From Phycisphaerales bacterium (GTDB lineage Bacteria > Planctomycetota > Phycisphaerae > Phycisphaerales > UBA1924): DNA of 64,000 bases. A model generated the notes under the pieces. That model did not search any database, had not been told where the DNA came from, and was given only the letters and a program-made list of their open reading frames with translations. Made by a program: the position numbers and the translations under genes. This document shows positions 4,553-51,056 of this stretch, piece after piece. The stretch spans positions 1 through 64,000 of the forward strand of contig JAHDXL010000003.1 of NCBI GenBank assembly GCA_023382935.1, read 5' to 3'. Each line of letters begins with the position of its first letter. Within the stretch, counting starts at the first letter, position 1.

Positions 4553-6880
4553 ATGACCGTCAGACTGAGCCGTCGTGCGACGTGCCTGCTCACTGTGTCC
4601 GGGCTTGCCATGGGTGCCGCTGGGCAGGGATTGTCACCCTGTTCGGGCCCGCAGTTCGCCGGCTCGTTCTATGCCACCGGTGCGACGCCTTTCTCGATCG
4701 TTTCGGGCGACGTGAACGGCGATGGGGCACCGGATCTGGTTGTGCCCAACGCGACCACCAACCAGGTGGCCGTGCTGATGGGCAATGCGGACGGGTCATT
4801 CGGACCTCCAGCCCACTACAACGTGGGCAATCGCCCCTACGCCGTGGGAATCGGCGACCTGAACGGTGACGGAAAGCCCGACCTCACGGTGGCCAACAAC
4901 CTGGCCAACACGGTCTCGGTGCTCGCGAACAATGGCGACGGCACATTCAGCGCCGGATCGAGCCGGGCCGTCGGATCCCGTCCGTGGGCCTTGCGCCTGG
5001 CGGACCTCAACGGCGACTCACACCTGGATGCCGTGGTGGCCAACAACACGGGCAACAACGTGTCAATCCTGCTGGGCGCTGGAGACGGGACATTTGCGGC
5101 CGCGGTGAACTATGCGGCCGGCGCGGCGCCGTGGGGAGTTTCAGTGGGCGACCTCGACCACGACGGGGACGTGGACGTGGTGGTGGCCTGCCGAACTGGA
5201 CAATCGGCCTGCGTCCTGCTCAACAACGGGAACGGCACCTTCGCTGGCGCCGTCAACTATGACCCGGGCGACCAGCCGGTGTGCGTGGCCATCGGCGACC
5301 TGGACGGAGACACGCATCCGGACCTGGCGCTGGGCTGCCCGACAAGCAACACCATTCGCGTTCTGCCGGGCGCCGGCAACGGGACGTTCGGCGCGGCGAC
5401 GTCTTTCGCCAGCGGCAACTGGCCCCGCGCCATCGCGCTGATGGATATGGACGGAGACGGCGATCAGGACATGGGCGTGGCCAACTGGCTGGGCGACAAC
5501 GCCTCCGTGTTCCGCAATGACGGCGTGGGCAACTTCACGCTGGTGCGACATCTGGAAACCGGCACGGGCTGCATCGGCGTCACCGCGTCGGACATCGATC
5601 AGGATTCGGACCCCGATCTGGTCGCCTGCCTGTACAACGGCGCCGGTGTGATTCCGCTGATGAACCGTGGGGGTGGCGACTTCGCGGCCGCATCCACGTA
5701 CAGCGTCGGGCACAACCCCGACGCGGTCATCATGGCCGACCTGAACAATGACGGCCAAGACGACATCGCCGTGGCAAACCTCGCGTCAAACACCGTGTCG
5801 GTGCTCTTCGGCAACGGTGACGGGACGTTCGCTCCCGCGGTGAACTTCGCCGCTGGCGCGGGTCCGTCCAACCTGATCGCCGCCGACGTCAACAACGACG
5901 GGCATCGCGACCTGGTTGTGACGAACTACCTGGCCGGCGTGTCGGTCCTCATGAACAACCAGAACGGAACATTCGCATCGCCGGTGGGCTACGCGGTGCA
6001 GAACGCACCCTCGGCCGTGGACGCGGGTGACCTGAACAACGATGGCTTCGCCGATCTGGCGGTTTCCAACTATCTGTCCGACTCGATGAGCATCCTGTTC
6101 AACAACGGAAATGGCACCTTCGCCGCCGCGACCCACAAGGCGGCCGGAGACGGACCCCAGGACGTGGCGATCTTCGACGTCGACATGGACAGTGATCTGG
6201 ACATCGTGGCGGCCAACCTGATCGGGGACACTGTTTCCATCTTCAAGAACAACGGGAACGGGACGTTTGCCAACAAGGTCGACTTCGCGGCCGGCGACGG
6301 GCCGAACTCCATCGCCTACGCCGACTTCGACGCCGACATGGACATCGACATCGTGGTGTCCAGCCAGTTGGATCACACGATCCGGGCGCTGAGAAACACC
6401 GGCAACGGCTCGTTCAACATCCCCGTCGCCTATCCCGCCGGCCTGTCTCCCTACGACGCCAAACTGCTGGACATCGATCGCGACGGCGACGAGGACGTGG
6501 TGGTGGCGCTACTGGGAGAAAACCACGTGGCGGTGCTGCTCAACGAAAACTTCGGCACCTTTGCCCCGCCCATGCTGCACAACACGGGCCAGTCACCCAT
6601 CGCGGTGGCGCTGGGTTCGTTCGACGGCAAGGACCGCCCGGGCATCGTCGTCGCAAATGTCGACTCGAACGACATCACCGTGCTGCCCAACATCTGCACG
6701 GTCGAGGTGGTGTGCCGCCCGGACCTCAACGGCGACGGCGACCTGAACTTCTTCGACGTGCAGACCTTCCTGAACCTCTTCCAGAACAACGACCCTGCCG
6801 CCGACTTCAACGCCGACGGCACCATCAACTTCTTCGACGTGCAGCGATTCCTGAGCGCCTTCTCCGACGGCTGTCCGTAA
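4553..6880 (+). CDS. Secreted FG-GAP/VCBS repeat protein with dockerin-like C-terminus
   Basis: A 775-residue exported protein with an N-terminal signal peptide (residues 1-25, ending A-A-G-Q). About fourteen repeats of roughly 46 residues follow. Each carries a calcium-type D-x-[DN]-x-D-x-x-x-D loop (for example D-V-N-G-D-G-A-P-D) and an N-G-D/N-G-T-F strand, which fits an FG-GAP beta-propeller. The C-terminal 55 residues are a double dockerin-like unit, D-L-N-G-D-G-D-L-N-F-F-D-V-Q and D-F-N-A-D-G-T-I-N-F-F-D-V-Q, ending in D-G-C-P. The same unit recurs at 63696. Role likely adhesion or surface display; no enzyme motif. GGAAGGGGAGG precedes the ATG. A terminator follows. Confidence 0.9.
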   Translation: MTVRLSRRATCLLTVSGLAMGAAGQGLSPCSGPQFAGSFYATGATPFSIVSGDVNGDGAPDLVVPNATTNQVAVLMGNADGSFGPPAHYNVGNRPYAVGIGDLNGDGKPDLTVANNLANTVSVLANNGDGTFSAGSSRAVGSRPWALRLADLNGDSHLDAVVANNTGNNVSILLGAGDGTFAAAVNYAAGAAPWGVSVGDLDHDGDVDVVVACRTGQSACVLLNNGNGTFAGAVNYDPGDQPVCVAIGDLDGDTHPDLALGCPTSNTIRVLPGAGNGTFGAATSFASGNWPRAIALMDMDGDGDQDMGVANWLGDNASVFRNDGVGNFTLVRHLETGTGCIGVTASDIDQDSDPDLVACLYNGAGVIPLMNRGGGDFAAASTYSVGHNPDAVIMADLNNDGQDDIAVANLASNTVSVLFGNGDGTFAPAVNFAAGAGPSNLIAADVNNDGHRDLVVTNYLAGVSVLMNNQNGTFASPVGYAVQNAPSAVDAGDLNNDGFADLAVSNYLSDSMSILFNNGNGTFAAATHKAAGDGPQDVAIFDVDMDSDLDIVAANLIGDTVSIFKNNGNGTFANKVDFAAGDGPNSIAYADFDADMDIDIVVSSQLDHTIRALRNTGNGSFNIPVAYPAGLSPYDAKLLDIDRDGDEDVVVALLGENHVAVLLNENFGTFAPPMLHNTGQSPIAVALGSFDGKDRPGIVVANVDSNDITVLPNICTVEVVCRPDLNGDGDLNFFDVQTFLNLFQNNDPAADFNADGTINFFDVQRFLSAFSDGCP

Positions 6881-44194: not shown

Positions 44195-44992
44195 ATGCGC
44201 CAGTACCTCGACCTGCTCGCTCACATCCTCGACCACGGCGTACCAAAGCACGACCGCACCGGCACCGGCACACGCTCCATCTTCGGTGCCCAACTCCGCT
44301 TCAACCTCTCCACCGGCTTCCCCCTCCTCACCACCAAGAAACTCCACACCCGCAGCATCGTCCACGAACTCCTCTGGTTCCTCGCCGGCGACACCAACGT
44401 CCGATCACTCCAGGCCCACGGCGTCTCCATCTGGGATGAGTGGGCCGATCCCGACACCGGCGAACTCGGCCCCGTCTATGGCCGCCAGTGGCGCTCCTGG
44501 CAGGCCCCCGACGGACGCGCCATCGACCAGATCTCCAACCTCGTCGATCAGATCCAGCGCAATCCCGATTCCCGCCGATTGATCGTCTCGGCCTGGAACC
44601 CCGCCGACATCGACCAAATGGCCCTGCCCCCCTGTCACTGCCTCTTTCAGTTTTATGTGGCCGAGGGTCGCCTGAGTTGCCAGTTGTACCAGCGTTCGGC
44701 CGACGTCTTCCTCGGCGTGCCTTTCAACATTGCCTCCTATGCCCTCCTCACCCACATGCTCGCCCAAGTCACCGACCTGGCGCCCGGTGAGTTCATCCAT
44801 ACCTTCGGCGACGTGCATCTCTACTCCAACCACGTCGAGCAAGCCCGCCTCCAACTCACCCGACAGCCCCGGCCCTTGCCGCGCCTGCGGCTCAACCCGG
44901 CCGTCCGCTCCCTCTTCGACTTCCGCTCCGAAGACATCGCCTTCGAGCACTACGACCCCCACCCGGCCATCAAGGCCCCCGTCGCGGTCTGA
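44195..44992 (+). CDS. thyA: Thymidylate synthase
   Basis: A 265-residue ThyA, the standard length. It methylates dUMP with methylene-tetrahydrofolate, giving dTMP and dihydrofolate. Motifs: D-R-T-G-T-G-T-R-S near the N-terminus, the catalytic Cys in [25 protein letters not shown] and the C-terminal A-P-V-A-V. folA follows 57 bases on and recycles the dihydrofolate. TACACT ends six bases before the ATG, with no Shine-Dalgarno. Confidence 0.98.
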
Positions 44993-45535: not shown

Positions 45536-45701
45536 CCCAGGCAAGCCGAACCAAGTCAGAAATCGATCGTAATCCAAACGACAAATCCCCGCTTGGCAGA
45601 GAGCCGGGGTTCTCGGTCGGAATCGTGCACCGAGAATCGGGCTTCGAGCGGACTCCGGCAAGAATCAGATCCAAATTTTGCGGATGGCCTGGACGGATTT
45701 G

Positions 45702-45729
45702 TTGCCGCTCTTGGGGGCTGATGTACCTT
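45702..45729 (+). promoter_or_regulatory. Promoter of array gene 1
   Basis: TTGCCG (45702-45707), a 16-base spacer and TACCTT (45724-45729), preceded by TG. The same elements with the same spacing precede array gene 2, although the rest of the upstream DNA differs. Confidence 0.65.
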
Positions 45730-45741
45730 CCAGTCGCCAGG

Positions 45742-45756
45742 AACGAGATGTTCGTT
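45742..45756 (+). promoter_or_regulatory. Inverted repeat in the leader of array gene 1
   Basis: AACGA-N5-TCGTT, 12 bases after the -10 box, within a shared CAGGAACGA context. The same half-sites recur before gene 2. It could be an operator or an mRNA structure. Confidence 0.45.
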
Positions 45757-45798
45757 GCATGGCCGAGTACCTGTTCGGTGTCCATTTGAGAAAGAGAA

Positions 45799-46436
45799 TG
45801 AGGAGAATCTCCATGAAGACTGCGTTCGCTCTTGCTGCTGTCGCCGGAATCGCCGCTGCCGCTTCCGCCCAGAGTTTCGAGATCTACATGGTTGCCCCGG
45901 CTCAGGTTGCCCAGGGCGCGACCTACACCGTTGAGGTGTGGGGCCATATCGTCGGCAGCCGCTGGGTCCAGGGCACCAGCGCGTTCGCCGGCTTCGGCAT
46001 CGACGCCATCGCCTCCAGCGGCGCCGCCGGCGTTGCCTCGATCACCACCTCCAGCATCGCCTCGTGGGCCGCTGGCTTCGGCTCCAACGGCATCGTTCAG
46101 GGCGCCAACCTGGTCAACACCTCGGGCGGGCAGTTGGCCAATCTCTTCGGCTTCCTGAATCCGAACATCAACATGAACAACCCGTTGATGCTCTTCACCT
46201 TCGATGTGACCGTCTCCAACTCGTACGTCGGCAACATCACCTACACCCCCGCCAATCCGAACCCGAACGGCGGTCTGTCGTTCTACCCCGTCAGCACGGA
46301 CGGCGCCTCGGTCATCGCTCCGAATGACGCTGGCACGACTCTGACCCTCACCGGCGCGACCACCCAGGTCATCCCGGCTCCGGCCTCGCTGGCCCTCCTG
46401 GGCCTCGGCGGCCTGGTTGCTCGTCGTCGTCGCTAA
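45799..46436 (+). repeat. First copy of an identical 638-bp direct repeat
   Basis: From the T of TGAGGAGAATCTCC to the stop codon the sequence is base-for-base the same as 46831-47468 when read by eye. Flanks diverge at once on both sides. The repeat holds the ribosome site and the whole coding region of array gene 1. Confidence 0.93.
45813..46436 (+). CDS. PEP-CTERM-like secreted protein, array gene 1
   Basis: A 207-residue exported protein. The signal peptide spans residues 1-19 (ends A-S-A-Q). The mature domain starts F-E-I-Y-M-V-A-P-A and has the beta-sandwich look of cohesin-like or choice-of-anchor domains (Y-T-V-E-V-W-G-H-I, N-P-L-M-L-F-T-F-D-V-T-V). The tail is P-A-P-A-S, a Leu/Gly helix and A-R-R-R-R, a PEP-CTERM-like sorting signal. 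It is identical to array gene 2 and clearly related to gene 3. AGGAG lies six bases before the ATG. Likely a surface or matrix protein made in quantity; that is inferred from duplication and good promoters. Confidence 0.88.
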   Translation: MKTAFALAAVAGIAAAASAQSFEIYMVAPAQVAQGATYTVEVWGHIVGSRWVQGTSAFAGFGIDAIASSGAAGVASITTSSIASWAAGFGSNGIVQGANLVNTSGGQLANLFGFLNPNINMNNPLMLFTFDVTVSNSYVGNITYTPANPNPNGGLSFYPVSTDGASVIAPNDAGTTLTLTGATTQVIPAPASLALLGLGGLVARRRR

Positions 46437-46731
46437 TCCGCGAACGACTTTGAGCCAACCCCTCGGCGCTGCCGCCTGACCTGCGGAGCAGCCGAGGCAG
46501 ATCAGAGATTCTCGTCGTACATCTGGTGAGCAGTCGGGCGGGCGGGGAACACCCCGCCCGCCTGCGCTTCCCGACCGTACACGATCGCCCGATGCGGACT
46601 GCGAAACAACACCCCCTAGTCAAGGGTATGAATGGAGGTCCGAAAATCTGGGCAGATCGTTTTTTGTTTGCGTGCCAACTCCCCAATTCGATCTTGACGC
46701 CCAAAAAGTGGCCACGAGATTCCGAATCGGG

Positions 46732-46759
46732 TTGCCGCCTTCCGGATCGCGTGTACCTT
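46732..46759 (+). promoter_or_regulatory. Promoter of array gene 2
   Basis: TTGCCG (46732-46737), a 16-base spacer and TACCTT (46754-46759), preceded by TG, as before gene 1. Confidence 0.65.
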
Positions 46760-46773
46760 CGGGACAGGTCAGG

Positions 46774-46788
46774 AACGAATCGTTCGTT
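46774..46788 (+). promoter_or_regulatory. Inverted repeat in the leader of array gene 2
   Basis: AACGA-N5-TCGTT, 14 bases after the -10, matching the element before gene 1 but with a different spacer. Confidence 0.45.
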
Positions 46789-46830
46789 TCCAAGCAAAGT
46801 CCTTGTTTGGTTCACACCAGAGTAGAGAAG

Positions 46831-47468
46831 TGAGGAGAATCTCCATGAAGACTGCGTTCGCTCTTGCTGCTGTCGCCGGAATCGCCGCTGCCGCTTCCGC
46901 CCAGAGTTTCGAGATCTACATGGTTGCCCCGGCTCAGGTTGCCCAGGGCGCGACCTACACCGTTGAGGTGTGGGGCCATATCGTCGGCAGCCGCTGGGTC
47001 CAGGGCACCAGCGCGTTCGCCGGCTTCGGCATCGACGCCATCGCCTCCAGCGGCGCCGCCGGCGTTGCCTCGATCACCACCTCCAGCATCGCCTCGTGGG
47101 CCGCTGGCTTCGGCTCCAACGGCATCGTTCAGGGCGCCAACCTGGTCAACACCTCGGGCGGGCAGTTGGCCAATCTCTTCGGCTTCCTGAATCCGAACAT
47201 CAACATGAACAACCCGTTGATGCTCTTCACCTTCGATGTGACCGTCTCCAACTCGTACGTCGGCAACATCACCTACACCCCCGCCAATCCGAACCCGAAC
47301 GGCGGTCTGTCGTTCTACCCCGTCAGCACGGACGGCGCCTCGGTCATCGCTCCGAATGACGCTGGCACGACTCTGACCCTCACCGGCGCGACCACCCAGG
47401 TCATCCCGGCTCCGGCCTCGCTGGCCCTCCTGGGCCTCGGCGGCCTGGTTGCTCGTCGTCGTCGCTAA
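46831..47468 (+). repeat. Second copy of the identical 638-bp direct repeat
   Basis: Exact match to 45799-46436, offset by 1032 bases. The absence of any silent difference implies very recent duplication or gene conversion. Confidence 0.93.
46845..47468 (+). CDS. PEP-CTERM-like secreted protein, array gene 2
   Basis: 207 residues, identical in protein and DNA to array gene 1, with the same signal peptide, beta-rich domain and Arg-cluster tail. It has its own promoter, the same inverted repeat in the leader and its own terminator, so the two copies are separate transcription units rather than an operon. Expression dosage is the simplest reason to keep both. Confidence 0.88.
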   Translation: MKTAFALAAVAGIAAAASAQSFEIYMVAPAQVAQGATYTVEVWGHIVGSRWVQGTSAFAGFGIDAIASSGAAGVASITTSSIASWAAGFGSNGIVQGANLVNTSGGQLANLFGFLNPNINMNNPLMLFTFDVTVSNSYVGNITYTPANPNPNGGLSFYPVSTDGASVIAPNDAGTTLTLTGATTQVIPAPASLALLGLGGLVARRRR

Positions 47469-47496
47469 CTCGGCTCGAACGGTCCGAGATCCAAAT

Positions 47497-47534
47497 CCAG
47501 AGCCCCGGCTTCGGCTGGGGTTCTGGTCTTTTTT
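47497..47534 (+). terminator. Terminator of array gene 2
   Basis: A 13-bp stem with a TTCG tetraloop (CCAGA...TCTGG at the base, two G-T pairs) is followed by TCTTTTTT. Confidence 0.92.
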
Positions 47535-47667
47535 GACCCTGAATGTCGGGGGGTTTTGCCTCACCCCCACTCAGACCGGGGAGCATTGAACCCAAACAAA
47601 ATATGCCGATGCCGGAAAAAGCCGCAAAAATTTTCTCGAATTCAGTGGGCGAAGTCCAATTCAGTAG

Positions 47668-47696
47668 TTGAATCGCGTGCCAGATTCGGCTATCTT
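47668..47696 (+). promoter_or_regulatory. Promoter of array gene 3
   Basis: TTGAAT (47668-47673), a 17-base spacer and TATCTT (47691-47696), closer to consensus than the promoters of genes 1 and 2. The leader is about 85 bases. Confidence 0.65.
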
Positions 47697-47736
47697 GTCT
47701 TTAACCCCATCTGAGAGAAGGGGGAGAGAACACAGA

Positions 47737-47753
47737 CCATTCGAGGCGAATGG
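47737..47753 (+). promoter_or_regulatory. Inverted repeat in the leader of array gene 3
   Basis: A perfect 7-bp inverted repeat, CCATTCG-agg-CGAATGG, about 30 bases before the ATG. It differs from the element of genes 1 and 2. Confidence 0.45.
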
Positions 47754-47786
47754 CATTCGTCTGTACCCTTGAGAGGAGAGCTTGAC

Positions 47787-48395
47787 ATGAAGAGCGTGTT
47801 TGCGATCGCTGCTGTTGCCGGTCTGGCCGGCGCTGCCTTGGCTCAGGACTTCACCATCTACGCCGTTGCTCCGGCTTCGGCCAACGTGGGTGACACCTAC
47901 ACGGTGGAGTTCTGGGGTCAGGTTGTTGGGGCCCCGTGGGTTCAGGGCACGAGCGCGATGGCGGGCTTCGGCGTTGACGCGCTGGGCACCGGCAACGTCG
48001 CCGCTGTCTCCACCGCCCACATCGCGGGCTGGGCTGCCGGCTTCGGAGTCGCCGGCGTGGTGAACGGCAACAACGTCACCGGTATCTCCGGTGGCCAGTT
48101 GGCCAACCTCTTCGGATTCCTGAATCCGAACATCAACATGAGCAACCCGATCCTGCTGTTCAGCATCGACGTGACCGTCGGTGGCTTCGGCGACATCACC
48201 TATATCGCCGGCAATCCGAACCCGAACGGCGGTCTGTCGTTCTACCCGGTCAGCACGGACGGCGCTTCGCGCGTTGCCCCGAATAACGCCGGCACCACCC
48301 TGACCTTCATCGGCGCGACCACCCACGTCGTTCCTGCCCCGGCTTCGCTGGCCCTGCTGGGCCTCGGTGGCCTGGTTGCCCGTCGTCGCCGCTAA
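47787..48395 (+). CDS. PEP-CTERM-like secreted protein, array gene 3
   Basis: A 202-residue paralogue of array genes 1 and 2. The signal peptide (ends A-L-A-Q) is followed by D-F-T-I-Y-A-V-A-P-A. Long shared stretches include G-G-Q-L-A-N-L-F-G-F-L-N-P-N-I and N-P-N-G-G-L-S-F-Y-P-V-S-T. The tail is nearly the same, with V-P-A-P-A-S and A-R-R-R-R. Codons in the shared stretches are also largely the same. GAGAGGAG precedes the ATG. A terminator follows. Confidence 0.88.
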   Translation: MKSVFAIAAVAGLAGAALAQDFTIYAVAPASANVGDTYTVEFWGQVVGAPWVQGTSAMAGFGVDALGTGNVAAVSTAHIAGWAAGFGVAGVVNGNNVTGISGGQLANLFGFLNPNINMSNPILLFSIDVTVGGFGDITYIAGNPNPNGGLSFYPVSTDGASRVAPNNAGTTLTFIGATTHVVPAPASLALLGLGGLVARRRR

Positions 48396-48430
48396 TCGAC
48401 GACTGCATCTGAGTTGCTGATACAACTCCG

Positions 48431-48472
48431 CGGCCCCGGTTGTTTCCGACCGGGGCCGTTCTCTTTTTCTTC
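48431..48472 (+). terminator. Terminator of array gene 3
   Basis: A 10-bp stem CGGCCCCGGT/ACCGGGGCCG is followed by TTCTCTTTTTCTT. Confidence 0.92.
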
Positions 48473-48544: not shown

Positions 48545-49072
48545 CTACTCGCCGTTGTACTGGATGACCGAGTGCAGGTCGGCGTAGTCGCGCAGGCGTT
48601 CGCGGCCGTTGAGATAGGTCAGTTCAATCAGCACGGTGATGCCAGCGATTTCGGCGTCGCACATCCTCACCAGTTCGCACGAGGCCTGCATGGTGCCGCC
48701 GGTGGCGAGCAGGTCATCGACGAGCAGCACACGGTGACTTCGGGCCAGCGCGTCGGAGTGGATCTCGAGCCGGTCAGTGCCGTATTCGAGGGCATAGTCA
48801 ACACCGTGCACGGAACGCGGGAGTTTGCCGGGTTTGCGGATGGGAACGAAGCCGGCCGAGAGGGCCTGTGCGATGGCGGTGCCGAAGATAAACCCGCGGC
48901 TCTCGGCGCCGATGACCAGGTCGATGCCCTTGCCGCGGTACGGGTTGGCCATCAGTTCGACCGCCAGGGCCAGCCCGCCGGGGTCGCTGAGCAGGGGCGT
49001 GAAGTCCTTGAACATGACGCCGGGCTTGGGGAAGTCTGGAACGTCACGGATGAATCGGGCGAGCGGATGCAT
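48545..49072 (-). CDS. apt: Adenine phosphoribosyltransferase
   Basis: A 175-residue purine salvage enzyme making AMP from adenine and PRPP. It has F-P-K-P-G-V-M-F-K-D-F-T-P-L-L near the N-terminus, E-S-R-G-F-I-F-G, and the PRPP-binding loop V-L-L-V-D-D-L-L-A-T-G-G-T. Length is typical. TATGCT ends six bases before the ATG on the minus strand. It is divergent from the GroES-like gene. Confidence 0.96.
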   Translation of the reverse strand: MHPLARFIRDVPDFPKPGVMFKDFTPLLSDPGGLALAVELMANPYRGKGIDLVIGAESRGFIFGTAIAQALSAGFVPIRKPGKLPRSVHGVDYALEYGTDRLEIHSDALARSHRVLLVDDLLATGGTMQASCELVRMCDAEIAGITVLIELTYLNGRERLRDYADLHSVIQYNGE

Positions 49073-49153
49073 GACAAGAGCATATTGCCAGACGCAGCGC
49101 GATGCGGGAAGAGCGGTGAACCGGACGGATCGCTGCCTCACGGCCGCGGCACC

Positions 49154-49186: not shown

Positions 49187-49510
49187 ATGCCAAGTCCGCG
49201 TACAGACAAGTCGGAACTGGAGACCGTCGAGCCCATCGGCGCGCGCGTGCTGATCCGCAAGGACGAGGACAAGAAGCAGACCAAGACGGGCATTCATCTG
49301 CCGGACAAGATCGAGATTCCGACGCTGACGGGGCGGGTGGTGGCCATCTCGGCCCAGGTGGCCAGCGACGAGAACTATCCGATCCGGAAGTACGACCGCA
49401 TCCTCTTCAACCCCAAGCACAGCATCCCAGTGGACTTCGAGGGCGACAACCGCCTGTTCGTGGTCCCGGTCGAGGACGTGGTGGCGGTGTTCCGAAAGGG
49501 CAAGGAGTAG
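49187..49510 (+). CDS. groES: GroES-like co-chaperonin
   Basis: A 107-residue chaperonin-10. The fold pattern is present: V-E-P-I-G-A-R-V-L-I-R at the start, a mobile-loop region K-T-K-T-G-I-H-L-P, then G-R-V-V-A-I-S and V-P-V-E-D-V-V-A-V at the end. It is somewhat divergent: the usual G-G-I-x-L-P is T-G-I-H-L-P. No groEL is adjacent, so this may be a secondary GroES. The start at 49187 is fixed by the upstream -10 box. Confidence 0.82.
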   Translation: MPSPRTDKSELETVEPIGARVLIRKDEDKKQTKTGIHLPDKIEIPTLTGRVVAISAQVASDENYPIRKYDRILFNPKHSIPVDFEGDNRLFVVPVEDVVAVFRKGKE

Positions 49511-49643: not shown

Positions 49644-51056
49644 ATGCTCAGTTCTGCGGAGATGCTGTCATTGCCACTCGACCAACTTCCCGATCCGCTG
49701 CCGATCACGCCGATCGTGCGGCGGCCGGGTCAGTCGCCGGTTGCTTTGACCCTTCGCCCGCCGGGGTCGAAGAGCCTGACGAACCGTGCGCTGCTGCTGG
49801 CGGCTCTGGCCGAGGGAACGTCGACGATCCGGCATGCCTTGGTCGGGGCCGACGACGCGGAGCGCATGCTGGCCGCGATCGAGCAACTGGGTGCGCGGGT
49901 GCAGCGGGTCGATCCAACCACACTGCGCATCAGCGGTGTGGGCGGGTCGTGGCGGGTGTATCCCGAAGGCGTGGAGTTATTCCTGAACAACGCGGGCACG
50001 GCGACGCGGTTTCTCGCGGCCGCCGCGCTGCTGGCGACCGGGCCGGTGACCATCGACGGGAACGATCGCATGCGGCAGCGGCCGCTGGGCGAGTTAATCG
50101 GGGCGCTGCGCACGCTGGGCGCGCGGGTCGAGGAGTTGGGCAGGCCCGGGTGCCCGCCGGTGCGCATCACCCCGCCGCCGGACAGCCAGCCGTCGGTCGC
50201 GATGGTCAAGTTCGGGCAGACGCAATCAAGCCAGTTCATCAGCGGTCTCCTGATGGCGGCGTCGTGTCTGCCCGACGGGCTGACCATCGACCTGGGTCCG
50301 GAGCCGACGAGCGGCTCGTATATCGGAATGACGGTGCGGCTGCTCGACCAGGTGGGAGTGCGCGTACGCACGAGCGAGCAGATGCGCCTGATCCGCGTGC
50401 TGCCTGGACTGAGCGCCTTTGATCTCGACATCGAACCGGACGCGAGCGGAGCGACCTACTTCTGGGCGGCCGCAGTGCTCCTGCCGGGCGCGACGGTGCG
50501 CGTCACCGGGCTGGATGCGCACAGCATGCAGGGCGACGCGGGATTCCCCGAGCAGTTGGGGCGCATGGGCGCCTTCGTGCGGCGCAGCGAGGATGACGAG
50601 AACCCGTGGGTCGAATGTCGCGGGTCCGACAGTCTGACGCCGACGCTGACGGACATGGGCACGATGCCCGACGCGACAATGACGCTGGCGGTGTGCTGTG
50701 CCTTTGCTTCCGGCACATCGATCCTGCGCGGAGTGCGGACGCTGCGGGTCAAGGAGTGCGACCGCATCAGCGCGCTACAGACTGAACTGGGCAAACTCGG
50801 CGTGAAGGTGGAGTGCGACGTGAACGCCGACTCGGACGTGATGACGATCACGCCTCCGAACGAGGGCGGACGTGTGGGCGTGTCGGGCAAGTCCGATGCG
50901 CCCCGCGTGGAGTTTGACACCCACGACGACCATCGGATGGCCATGTCCCTGGCGCTAATCGGTCTGCGCCGCCCGAACGTGTGGATACGCAATCCGCGAT
51001 GCGTGGAGAAGACCTATCCGGACTTCTGGCGCGATCTTTCGAGGCTGTACGACTGA
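49644..51056 (+). CDS. aroA: 3-phosphoshikimate 1-carboxyvinyltransferase (EPSP synthase)
   Basis: A 470-residue EPSP synthase joining shikimate 3-phosphate and PEP in chorismate synthesis, upstream of the pheA reaction. Motifs: P-P-G-S-K-S-L-T-N-R-A-L, the L-F-L-N-N-A-G-T-A-T-R-F motif, S-S-Q-F-I-S-G-L-L-M-A and K-E-C-D-R-I-S-A with D-D-H-R-M-A-M-S near the end. It is longer than E. coli's (427), mainly by an N-terminal extension of about 25 residues. TATGCT ends six bases before the ATG. Confidence 0.97.
   Translation: MLSSAEMLSLPLDQLPDPLPITPIVRRPGQSPVALTLRPPGSKSLTNRALLLAALAEGTSTIRHALVGADDAERMLAAIEQLGARVQRVDPTTLRISGVGGSWRVYPEGVELFLNNAGTATRFLAAAALLATGPVTIDGNDRMRQRPLGELIGALRTLGARVEELGRPGCPPVRITPPPDSQPSVAMVKFGQTQSSQFISGLLMAASCLPDGLTIDLGPEPTSGSYIGMTVRLLDQVGVRVRTSEQMRLIRVLPGLSAFDLDIEPDASGATYFWAAAVLLPGATVRVTGLDAHSMQGDAGFPEQLGRMGAFVRRSEDDENPWVECRGSDSLTPTLTDMGTMPDATMTLAVCCAFASGTSILRGVRTLRVKECDRISALQTELGKLGVKVECDVNADSDVMTITPPNEGGRVGVSGKSDAPRVEFDTHDDHRMAMSLALIGLRRPNVWIRNPRCVEKTYPDFWRDLSRLYD

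Follow-up and report, generated by a model that had tools for sequence, protein, structure and literature searches.

A three-gene array in 64,000 nucleotides of an uncultivated Phycisphaerales bacterium (GCA_023382935.1, contig JAHDXL010000003.1, positions 1 to 64,000 of the forward strand; hereafter the window) encodes three small, apparently exported proteins, two of which are specified by genes identical in DNA from the ribosome site to the stop codon. The explanation that we hold, with reasonable though incomplete confidence, is that each protein carries a likely signal peptide, one cohesin-fold β-sandwich and a PEP-CTERM-type tail, and that an exosortase would process the tail and place the domain at the cell surface or in the exopolysaccharide (EPS) matrix, where it may serve in adhesion or docking. 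Each array gene would be a separate transcription unit. Genes 1 and 2 would retain separate, long-diverged copies of one promoter, including a box that is probably an operator, and a recent gene conversion, presumably of gene 1 sequence over gene 2, would have made their coding units identical, stopping where homology stops, at the ribosome site and the stop codon.

The identity of the two copies was established by comparing the window with itself. The two copies of the block match base for base over 638 base pairs (bp) without a mismatch, the left edge lying two bases 5' of AGGAGAATCTCC and the right edge being the last base of TAA. Genes 1 and 2 encode one and the same 207-residue protein, and the protein of gene 3 is 71% identical to it. 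The first-pass annotation of this DNA had described two DNA-identical copies of 638 bases, from ribosome site to stop, followed by a diverged paralogue, and both parts of that description were borne out. The window contains no other direct repeat of at least 40 bp in its 64 kb, and its DNA is free of N. The elements of the array are as follows.

45799 to 46436, forward strand: identical block, copy 1, ribosome site to stop (self-comparison)
45813 to 46436, forward strand: gene 1, 207 residues, with a likely signal peptide (by eye), a predicted cohesin-fold domain and a PEP-CTERM-like tail
46831 to 47468, forward strand: identical block, copy 2 (self-comparison)
46845 to 47468, forward strand: gene 2, protein the same as that of gene 1
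47787 to 48395, forward strand: gene 3, a paralogue of 202 residues with a PEP-CTERM tail above the TIGR02595 cut-off

Genes 1 and 2 are preceded by homologous but diverged sequence (92 identities in 126 aligned bases; score 71, with a maximum of 15 in 200 shuffles), whereas the regions downstream are unrelated (score 7, shuffle maximum 25). Gene 3 has an upstream region unrelated to those of genes 1 and 2, and its downstream flank, aligned without a shuffle control, gave short chance-like matches only. A sigma-70 scan returned one weak site against 0.4 expected and was uninformative. Relatives retain the sequence upstream of gene 2 and likewise that upstream of gene 3, and terminator-like hairpins follow both genes; an individual promoter for each array gene, as had been proposed, is therefore plausible. 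The end of gene 1 offers only an inverted repeat without a T run.

45701 to 45798, forward strand: gene 1 upstream region, a diverged homologue of that of gene 2
46731 to 46830, forward strand: gene 2 upstream region, orthologous to those in genomes G001 and G042
46537 to 46562, forward strand: G+C-rich inverted repeat 3' of gene 1, no T run, found by eye and unflagged by the terminator scan
47497 to 47526, forward strand: terminator-like hairpin 3' of gene 2
48430 to 48459, forward strand: terminator-like hairpin 3' of gene 3

The gene 2 upstream region of the window aligns with that of a sister species (G001) at 115 of 134 positions (score 178), and the gene 1 upstream region aligns with that of G001 gene 2 at 91 of 127 (score 73), which places gene 1 equally far from both gene 2s. 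Of the 91 aligned columns, all three sequences agree in 49 and differ from one another in four; private states number 25 for gene 1, eight for gene 2 and five for G001. The same picture was obtained at three other lengths. A recently copied gene 1 should side with G001 at few of the 13 sites that are private either to gene 2 or to G001, yet it does so at eight (P = 0.00016, 0.0057 or 0.033 at an assumed chance per site of 15%, 25% or 33%). The gene 2 upstream region is also closer to that of the first array gene of G042, a member of another genus (score 123), than to that of gene 1 (score 67). Because the gene 2 upstream region is nearer to G001 and G042 than to gene 1, and from the distribution of private columns, the split between genes 1 and 2 seems to predate that of the species. 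In the coding tree G001 gene 2 and G042 group together with the window pair outside (95% support), a grouping that conflicts with the aroA species tree; since the sequence shared by the window pair is left outside, it suggests that gene 1 sequence overwrote gene 2. Separate trees of the two halves of the coding region had weak support.

Gene conversion between two older copies is thus the favoured reading of the pair. A single recent duplication, in which the coding unit was copied once beside a pre-existing diverged promoter and conversion was unneeded, appears unlikely, although 638 bp without any change is what it would leave and a pair at another locus (L061, described below) resembles a recent duplication that included the promoter. 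Such a copy would have had to end at the ribosome site and at the stop codon and to land by a homologous promoter differing at 27-41% of positions, depending on the stretch aligned, and neither the upstream site patterns nor the coding tree fits it. Several observations nevertheless weigh on the other side. Approximately unbiased (AU) tests of the recent-copy topology gave p = 0.091 for the upstream region and p = 0.060 for the coding region, neither of which rejects it at 5%; the gene 1 upstream region could simply be fast-evolving; and an orthologue of gene 1 was not seen in G001 or G002, where its place falls at or beyond contig ends. A check of the left flank in these sister species found neither thyA nor folA, the genes to the left of the array in the window. 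The choice that had been left between recent duplication and ongoing conversion is therefore tilted toward conversion by the promoters, with duplication unrejected by the tree tests. Clearly divergent orthologues of both copies in relatives, the condition set against the first-pass reading, are half in evidence: that of gene 2 was recovered in G001 (orthologous at the promoter, diverged in coding sequence), and that of gene 1 would lie at or beyond the contig end in both relatives of the same genus.

An assembly artefact, in which two real and slightly different copies were merged into one consensus from short reads, would give the same identity and is in our estimation quite improbable. The genome is in 35 contigs, and in the sister species G002 the contig stops 95 bp into gene 2, the kind of break that a repeat would cause in an assembly. 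A search for a 16S rRNA gene in the genome found none, which is a hint only; a missing 16S rRNA gene is common in short-read assemblies. Against a merged consensus, the window spans both copies without an N and with different flanks, and homogenised pairs occur in separate assemblies, though the same artefact is possible there. The promoter evidence for two old genes holds with or without an artefact.

Other arrays of the family bear marks of exchange or of recent copying. G019, from another genus, has mosaic genes A, B and C. Over 35 consecutive polymorphic sites, of 82 in all, A and C are the same, and they share an exact run of 309 bp (permutation P = 0.0001, the lowest value that the test can give); the exact run shared by B and C is 184 bp long (P = 0.009). 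The flanks of A and C are unrelated. The downstream flanks of B and C, however, are alike (score 30, shuffle maximum 17), so exchange there was not wholly confined to the coding unit, which tells against a strict coding-unit boundary. The two L061 genes (5149-5769 and 6001-6621) are identical for 538 bp from the start codon onward and match at 95 of 100 bases upstream of it; they diverge at the 3' end, and the pair looks like a recent duplication. Concerted evolution of genes 1 and 2 with gene 3 was considered and set aside, the sites being mixed (32 group by genome, 41 by gene and 14 in a third way). These groupings fall in clusters along the coding sequence (24 runs, with 36.9 expected; P = 0.0018), and position-dependent selection could give the same clustering.

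Paralogues made alike within a genome recall the concerted evolution reported for prokaryotes (PMC6053082). That study reports 26 genes with long-lasting recurrent concerted evolution, most of them key pathway members, which differs from the surface-protein array described here. The locus is a case in which coding units look homogenised and promoters do not.

All three array proteins begin with an apparent signal peptide, continue in a domain of roughly 160 residues and close with a tail (...PAPASLALLGLGGLVARRRR); the N-terminus, MKTAFALAAVAGIAAAASAQ, is signal-peptide-like as judged by eye. The tail scored above the cut-off of TIGR02595 (16 bits) in gene 3, at 16.9 bits. An exosortase is present in the same genome (TIGR02602, 114.1 bits against a cut-off of 105.55; contig C3, 230011-230736), with an EpsE-like polysaccharide export protein, a PrsT-like tetratricopeptide repeat (TPR) protein and an EpsG-like kinase as neighbours, all three under their equivalog cut-offs. 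The mature part of each array protein has no Cys and a single Lys/Arg. Its Thr, Ser and Asn contents are 10.2, 9.6 and 9.0% in genes 1 and 2 and 9.3, 5.6 and 9.3% in gene 3, where Ser is not raised; the composition low in Cys and basic residues and high in Thr, Ser and Asn that is described for PEP-CTERM proteins (PMC1569441) is thus present.

46371 to 46433, forward strand: PEP-CTERM-like tail of gene 1, residues 187-207 (TIGR02595 15.4 bits, PF07589 17.5 bits)

Not all of the profile evidence favours a PEP-CTERM assignment. Genes 1 and 2 fall below the TIGR02595 cut-off, and the PF07589 cut-off of 20.7 bits is reached by none of the three (18.7 bits for gene 3). The same Pfam model found 21 places in the array's own genome, 11 of them above cut-off, and the three array genes are absent from those 21. 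The likeness to the PEP-CTERM/exosortase system (TIGR02595, TIGR02602; PMC1569441) extends, on the features that its description sets out in the parts relevant here, to the short C-terminal motif followed by a hydrophobic stretch and arginines, to an exosortase accompanied by EPS-type genes, to the look of single transcription units, and to frequent duplication and loss; the array tail differs in reading PAPAS rather than PEP and in scoring around the cut-off. From these sequence features we infer that the array proteins are sorted by exosortase to the cell surface or matrix. The earlier suggestion of a surface or matrix protein finds support in the PEP-CTERM-type tail, in the exosortase with its EPS-type neighbours, and in the lack of Cys and single Lys/Arg.

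The mature domain, taken as residues 20-186, had been left without a name, and structure prediction had been advised for it. Two AlphaFold2 runs were made, with 30 and 27 aligned sequences, relatives being picked by hand from the loci. The model of the window protein (30 aligned sequences; predicted local distance difference test [pLDDT] 73.4, predicted template modelling score [pTM] 0.70) is a β-sandwich, and its best structural match is the cohesin 4uyp_C (Z 12.5, 140 residues aligned, 3.0 Å). A syntenic relative from another metagenome-assembled genome (locus L063) gave a better model (pLDDT 90.6, pTM 0.82). Its best match is 2vo8 (135 residues; Z 13.6, 132 aligned, 2.6 Å), cohesin stands in the title of 41 of the first 44 structural matches, and the first plainly different entry is the 45th. 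Foldseek E-values for this model were modest, 3.5e-5 at best, and 13 chains reached 0.001 or lower, including three of BslA and one of CLIPPER. The CLIPPER, pilin, integrin and BslA folds were each considered and rejected, since their Z scores, where listed, lie below those of the cohesins. The mature domain is accordingly predicted by these models to belong to a cohesin-fold family.

This assignment has evidence against it as well. The window protein's own model is only moderate in its pLDDT, and in a search with 30 family members at E values up to 1, which hit eight Pfam families, none matched the cohesin profile. Run against the cohesin that the genome itself encodes, the family profile gave a probability of 0.4%, and among solved structures it found no convincing sequence match (best E 0.99). 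Because the cohesin sequence profile was not matched, the array family is left outside the cohesin (PF00963) sequence family. It resembles the type I/II cohesin modules of cellulosomes and non-cellulosomal proteins in predicted fold, and differs from them in having no recognisable sequence similarity, in being single-domain, in its exosortase-type anchor, and in being known here from prediction. PEP-CTERM proteins are characterised in the pertinent sections of Haft et al. (2006; PMC1569441) as typically lacking homology outside the tail; the array would provide a syntenic PEP-CTERM family with a predicted fold. In the one open-licence library searched, no paper was found that links PEP-CTERM to 'gene conversion' or to 'cohesin', and one review came up for PEP-CTERM together with 'Phycisphaer'.

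A cohesin fold raises the question of dockerins. Dockerins above cut-off were found in 42 of the 46 genomes searched, the array's own included, which has 17 dockerin places, 10 of them above cut-off, and a single Pfam cohesin. Array proteins are thereby candidates for the missing partner in dockerin-rich genomes, and that they bind dockerins is no more than a guess. The fullest form of the idea is that folA-linked Phycisphaerales arrays encode an unrecognised class of exosortase-anchored single-domain cohesins that dock the many secreted dockerin proteins of these bacteria on the surface, are kept uniform by conversion and are co-switched by a palindromic operator; we regard this as a speculative and rather doubtful proposal. 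Somewhat probable, in our view, is that the cohesin fold acts as a structural or adhesive matrix unit only and binds no dockerin. The family has no sequence match to cohesins and, by sequence, nothing convincing among solved structures; G001 has the array and no dockerin match; and the structural matches also include the CLIPPER adhesin domain, pilins, integrins and BslA. What speaks against a purely structural role is the spread of dockerins over those 42 genomes, the excess of 10 dockerin places over one recognised cohesin in the array's own genome, and the predominance of cohesin titles for the L063 model.

As separate observations, up to 71 dockerin matches were counted per genome (in G008). 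The dockerins of the array's own genome include those at C8:59746-59892 and C3:176663-176806. The own-genome cohesin is held by a cohesin-HYR-dockerin protein (G000:C8:57736-59892; L119, L114), with HYR at 17.5 bits, below cut-off. The window itself (4553-6880, forward strand) encodes a 775-residue repeat protein, likely secreted, with a dockerin-like C-terminus (Pfam Dockerin_1, E 0.006, below cut-off). The 'planctosome' of freshwater Phycisphaerae (PMC6461901) is alike in the relevant portions of its account, the array's own genome having a cohesin/HYR/dockerin protein like the adaptor proposed there and many dockerins. It differs in that a lamin-tail domain anchor is proposed, and the main text mentions neither PEP-CTERM nor exosortase. 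For archaea, a study covering both dockerin and exosortase suggests, in the part concerned, adhesion for dockerin and cohesin proteins.

A second conserved feature is an inverted-repeat box with the consensus A(C/G/T)GAAC-N5-GTTCGTT, found at 11 loci in several genera (the window, G001, G042, G019, L060-L065, and G012 [L021]), where it precedes the start codon of one or two PEP-CTERM genes by 51-64 bp. In the window the form AGGAACGANNNGTTCGTT occurs at two sites, before genes 1 and 2 (0.03 expected with two mismatches allowed).

45739 to 45756, forward strand: inverted-repeat box AGGAACGA-N3-GTTCGTT, upstream of gene 1
46771 to 46788, forward strand: inverted-repeat box, upstream of gene 2

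Exact copies stand at near-equal distance before array genes of G001, G042, G019, L064 and L065; L060-L063 carry variants that deviate at one position, or at two in the case of L060. The search used AGGAACGANNNGTTCGTT and ACGAAC-N5-GTTCGTT with one mismatch over 766,940 bases of fetched loci, overlapping loci included; four reverse-strand readings (L060-L063) and repeats in overlapping loci were not counted as extra sites. Every site precedes a PEP-CTERM gene, recognised by a regular expression for the tail, save the reverse readings and one site in L086, where the locus end cuts the gene off, and no other site at one mismatch or fewer was present in those bases. A scan of the surroundings of other PEP-CTERM genes in the array's own genome (20 of the 21 Pfam places plus one paralogue place; 20 stretches, 91.5 kb) gave no AGGAACGANNNGTTCGTT site at one mismatch or fewer and one at two (L136). 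No box stands in front of gene 3 or of most other genes in these arrays, nor is there one in L081, L082, L109, L112 and L113.

An RNA hairpin was considered for the box and rejected, since its folding energies are unremarkable (z -0.59 and -0.70) and no covariation between the arms is apparent by eye; for these reasons a DNA site is preferred. A likeness to the LexA site of Gram-positive bacteria was also considered and set aside, its spacing being different. The box is probably an operator, or a candidate one, of some regulator. Conserved upstream DNA of PEP-CTERM genes, of sigma-54 type, is ascribed to Proteobacteria only in the passages of Haft et al. (2006; PMC1569441) that treat it. The present element differs from the one in those passages in being an inverted repeat and in occurring in Planctomycetes, and it could be a Planctomycete counterpart.

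The array occupies a locus bounded by thyA and folA on the left and by apt, groES and aroA on the right, names that we presume from the sequence itself.

44195 to 44992, forward strand: thyA-like gene, left boundary of the conserved locus, with homologues beside folA in L046, L064 and L109-L111
45050 to 45535, forward strand: folA-like gene (dihydrofolate reductase), the immediate left-hand neighbour of the array, with homologues beside arrays elsewhere
48545 to 49141, reverse strand: apt-like gene, right boundary of the locus, with homologues in other loci
49187 to 49510, forward strand: groES-like gene, with homologues in other loci
49644 to 51056, forward strand: aroA-like gene, with homologues in other loci

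Among 28 loci in named genomes are 11 in which the match covers almost the entire query; folA adjoins the array in seven of these, and apt, groES or aroA in three more. G019 has PEP-CTERM genes of the array family beside and beyond folA, and G042 has folA, three array genes and a fourth tblastn match, then apt, groES and aroA. A search for folA in 61 genomes, the array's own included, gave a match in 22, and a PEP-CTERM-like gene lies within 1.5 kb of folA in six of the 22 (own included), against a chance expectation of 2-5% per genome at 21-60 such genes. That test relied on a motif regular expression, with low-complexity false matches removed by eye; two of the six (G028, G060) are unlike the array family and a third (G023) is a distant relative. 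By sequence comparison, the array locus is conserved across genera.

The record L059 (RHKP01000017.1), titled 'Cyanobacteria bacterium CYA N2_1', has the same gene order and is placed by the aroA tree with the genome of the window, and its label looks wrong. A further paralogue in the array's own genome (G000:C10:4933-5549; L045) is split over two matches in different frames and is either a pseudogene or an assembly error, and a paralogue fragment with an internal TGA lies at G002:C25:214835-215209 (L043).

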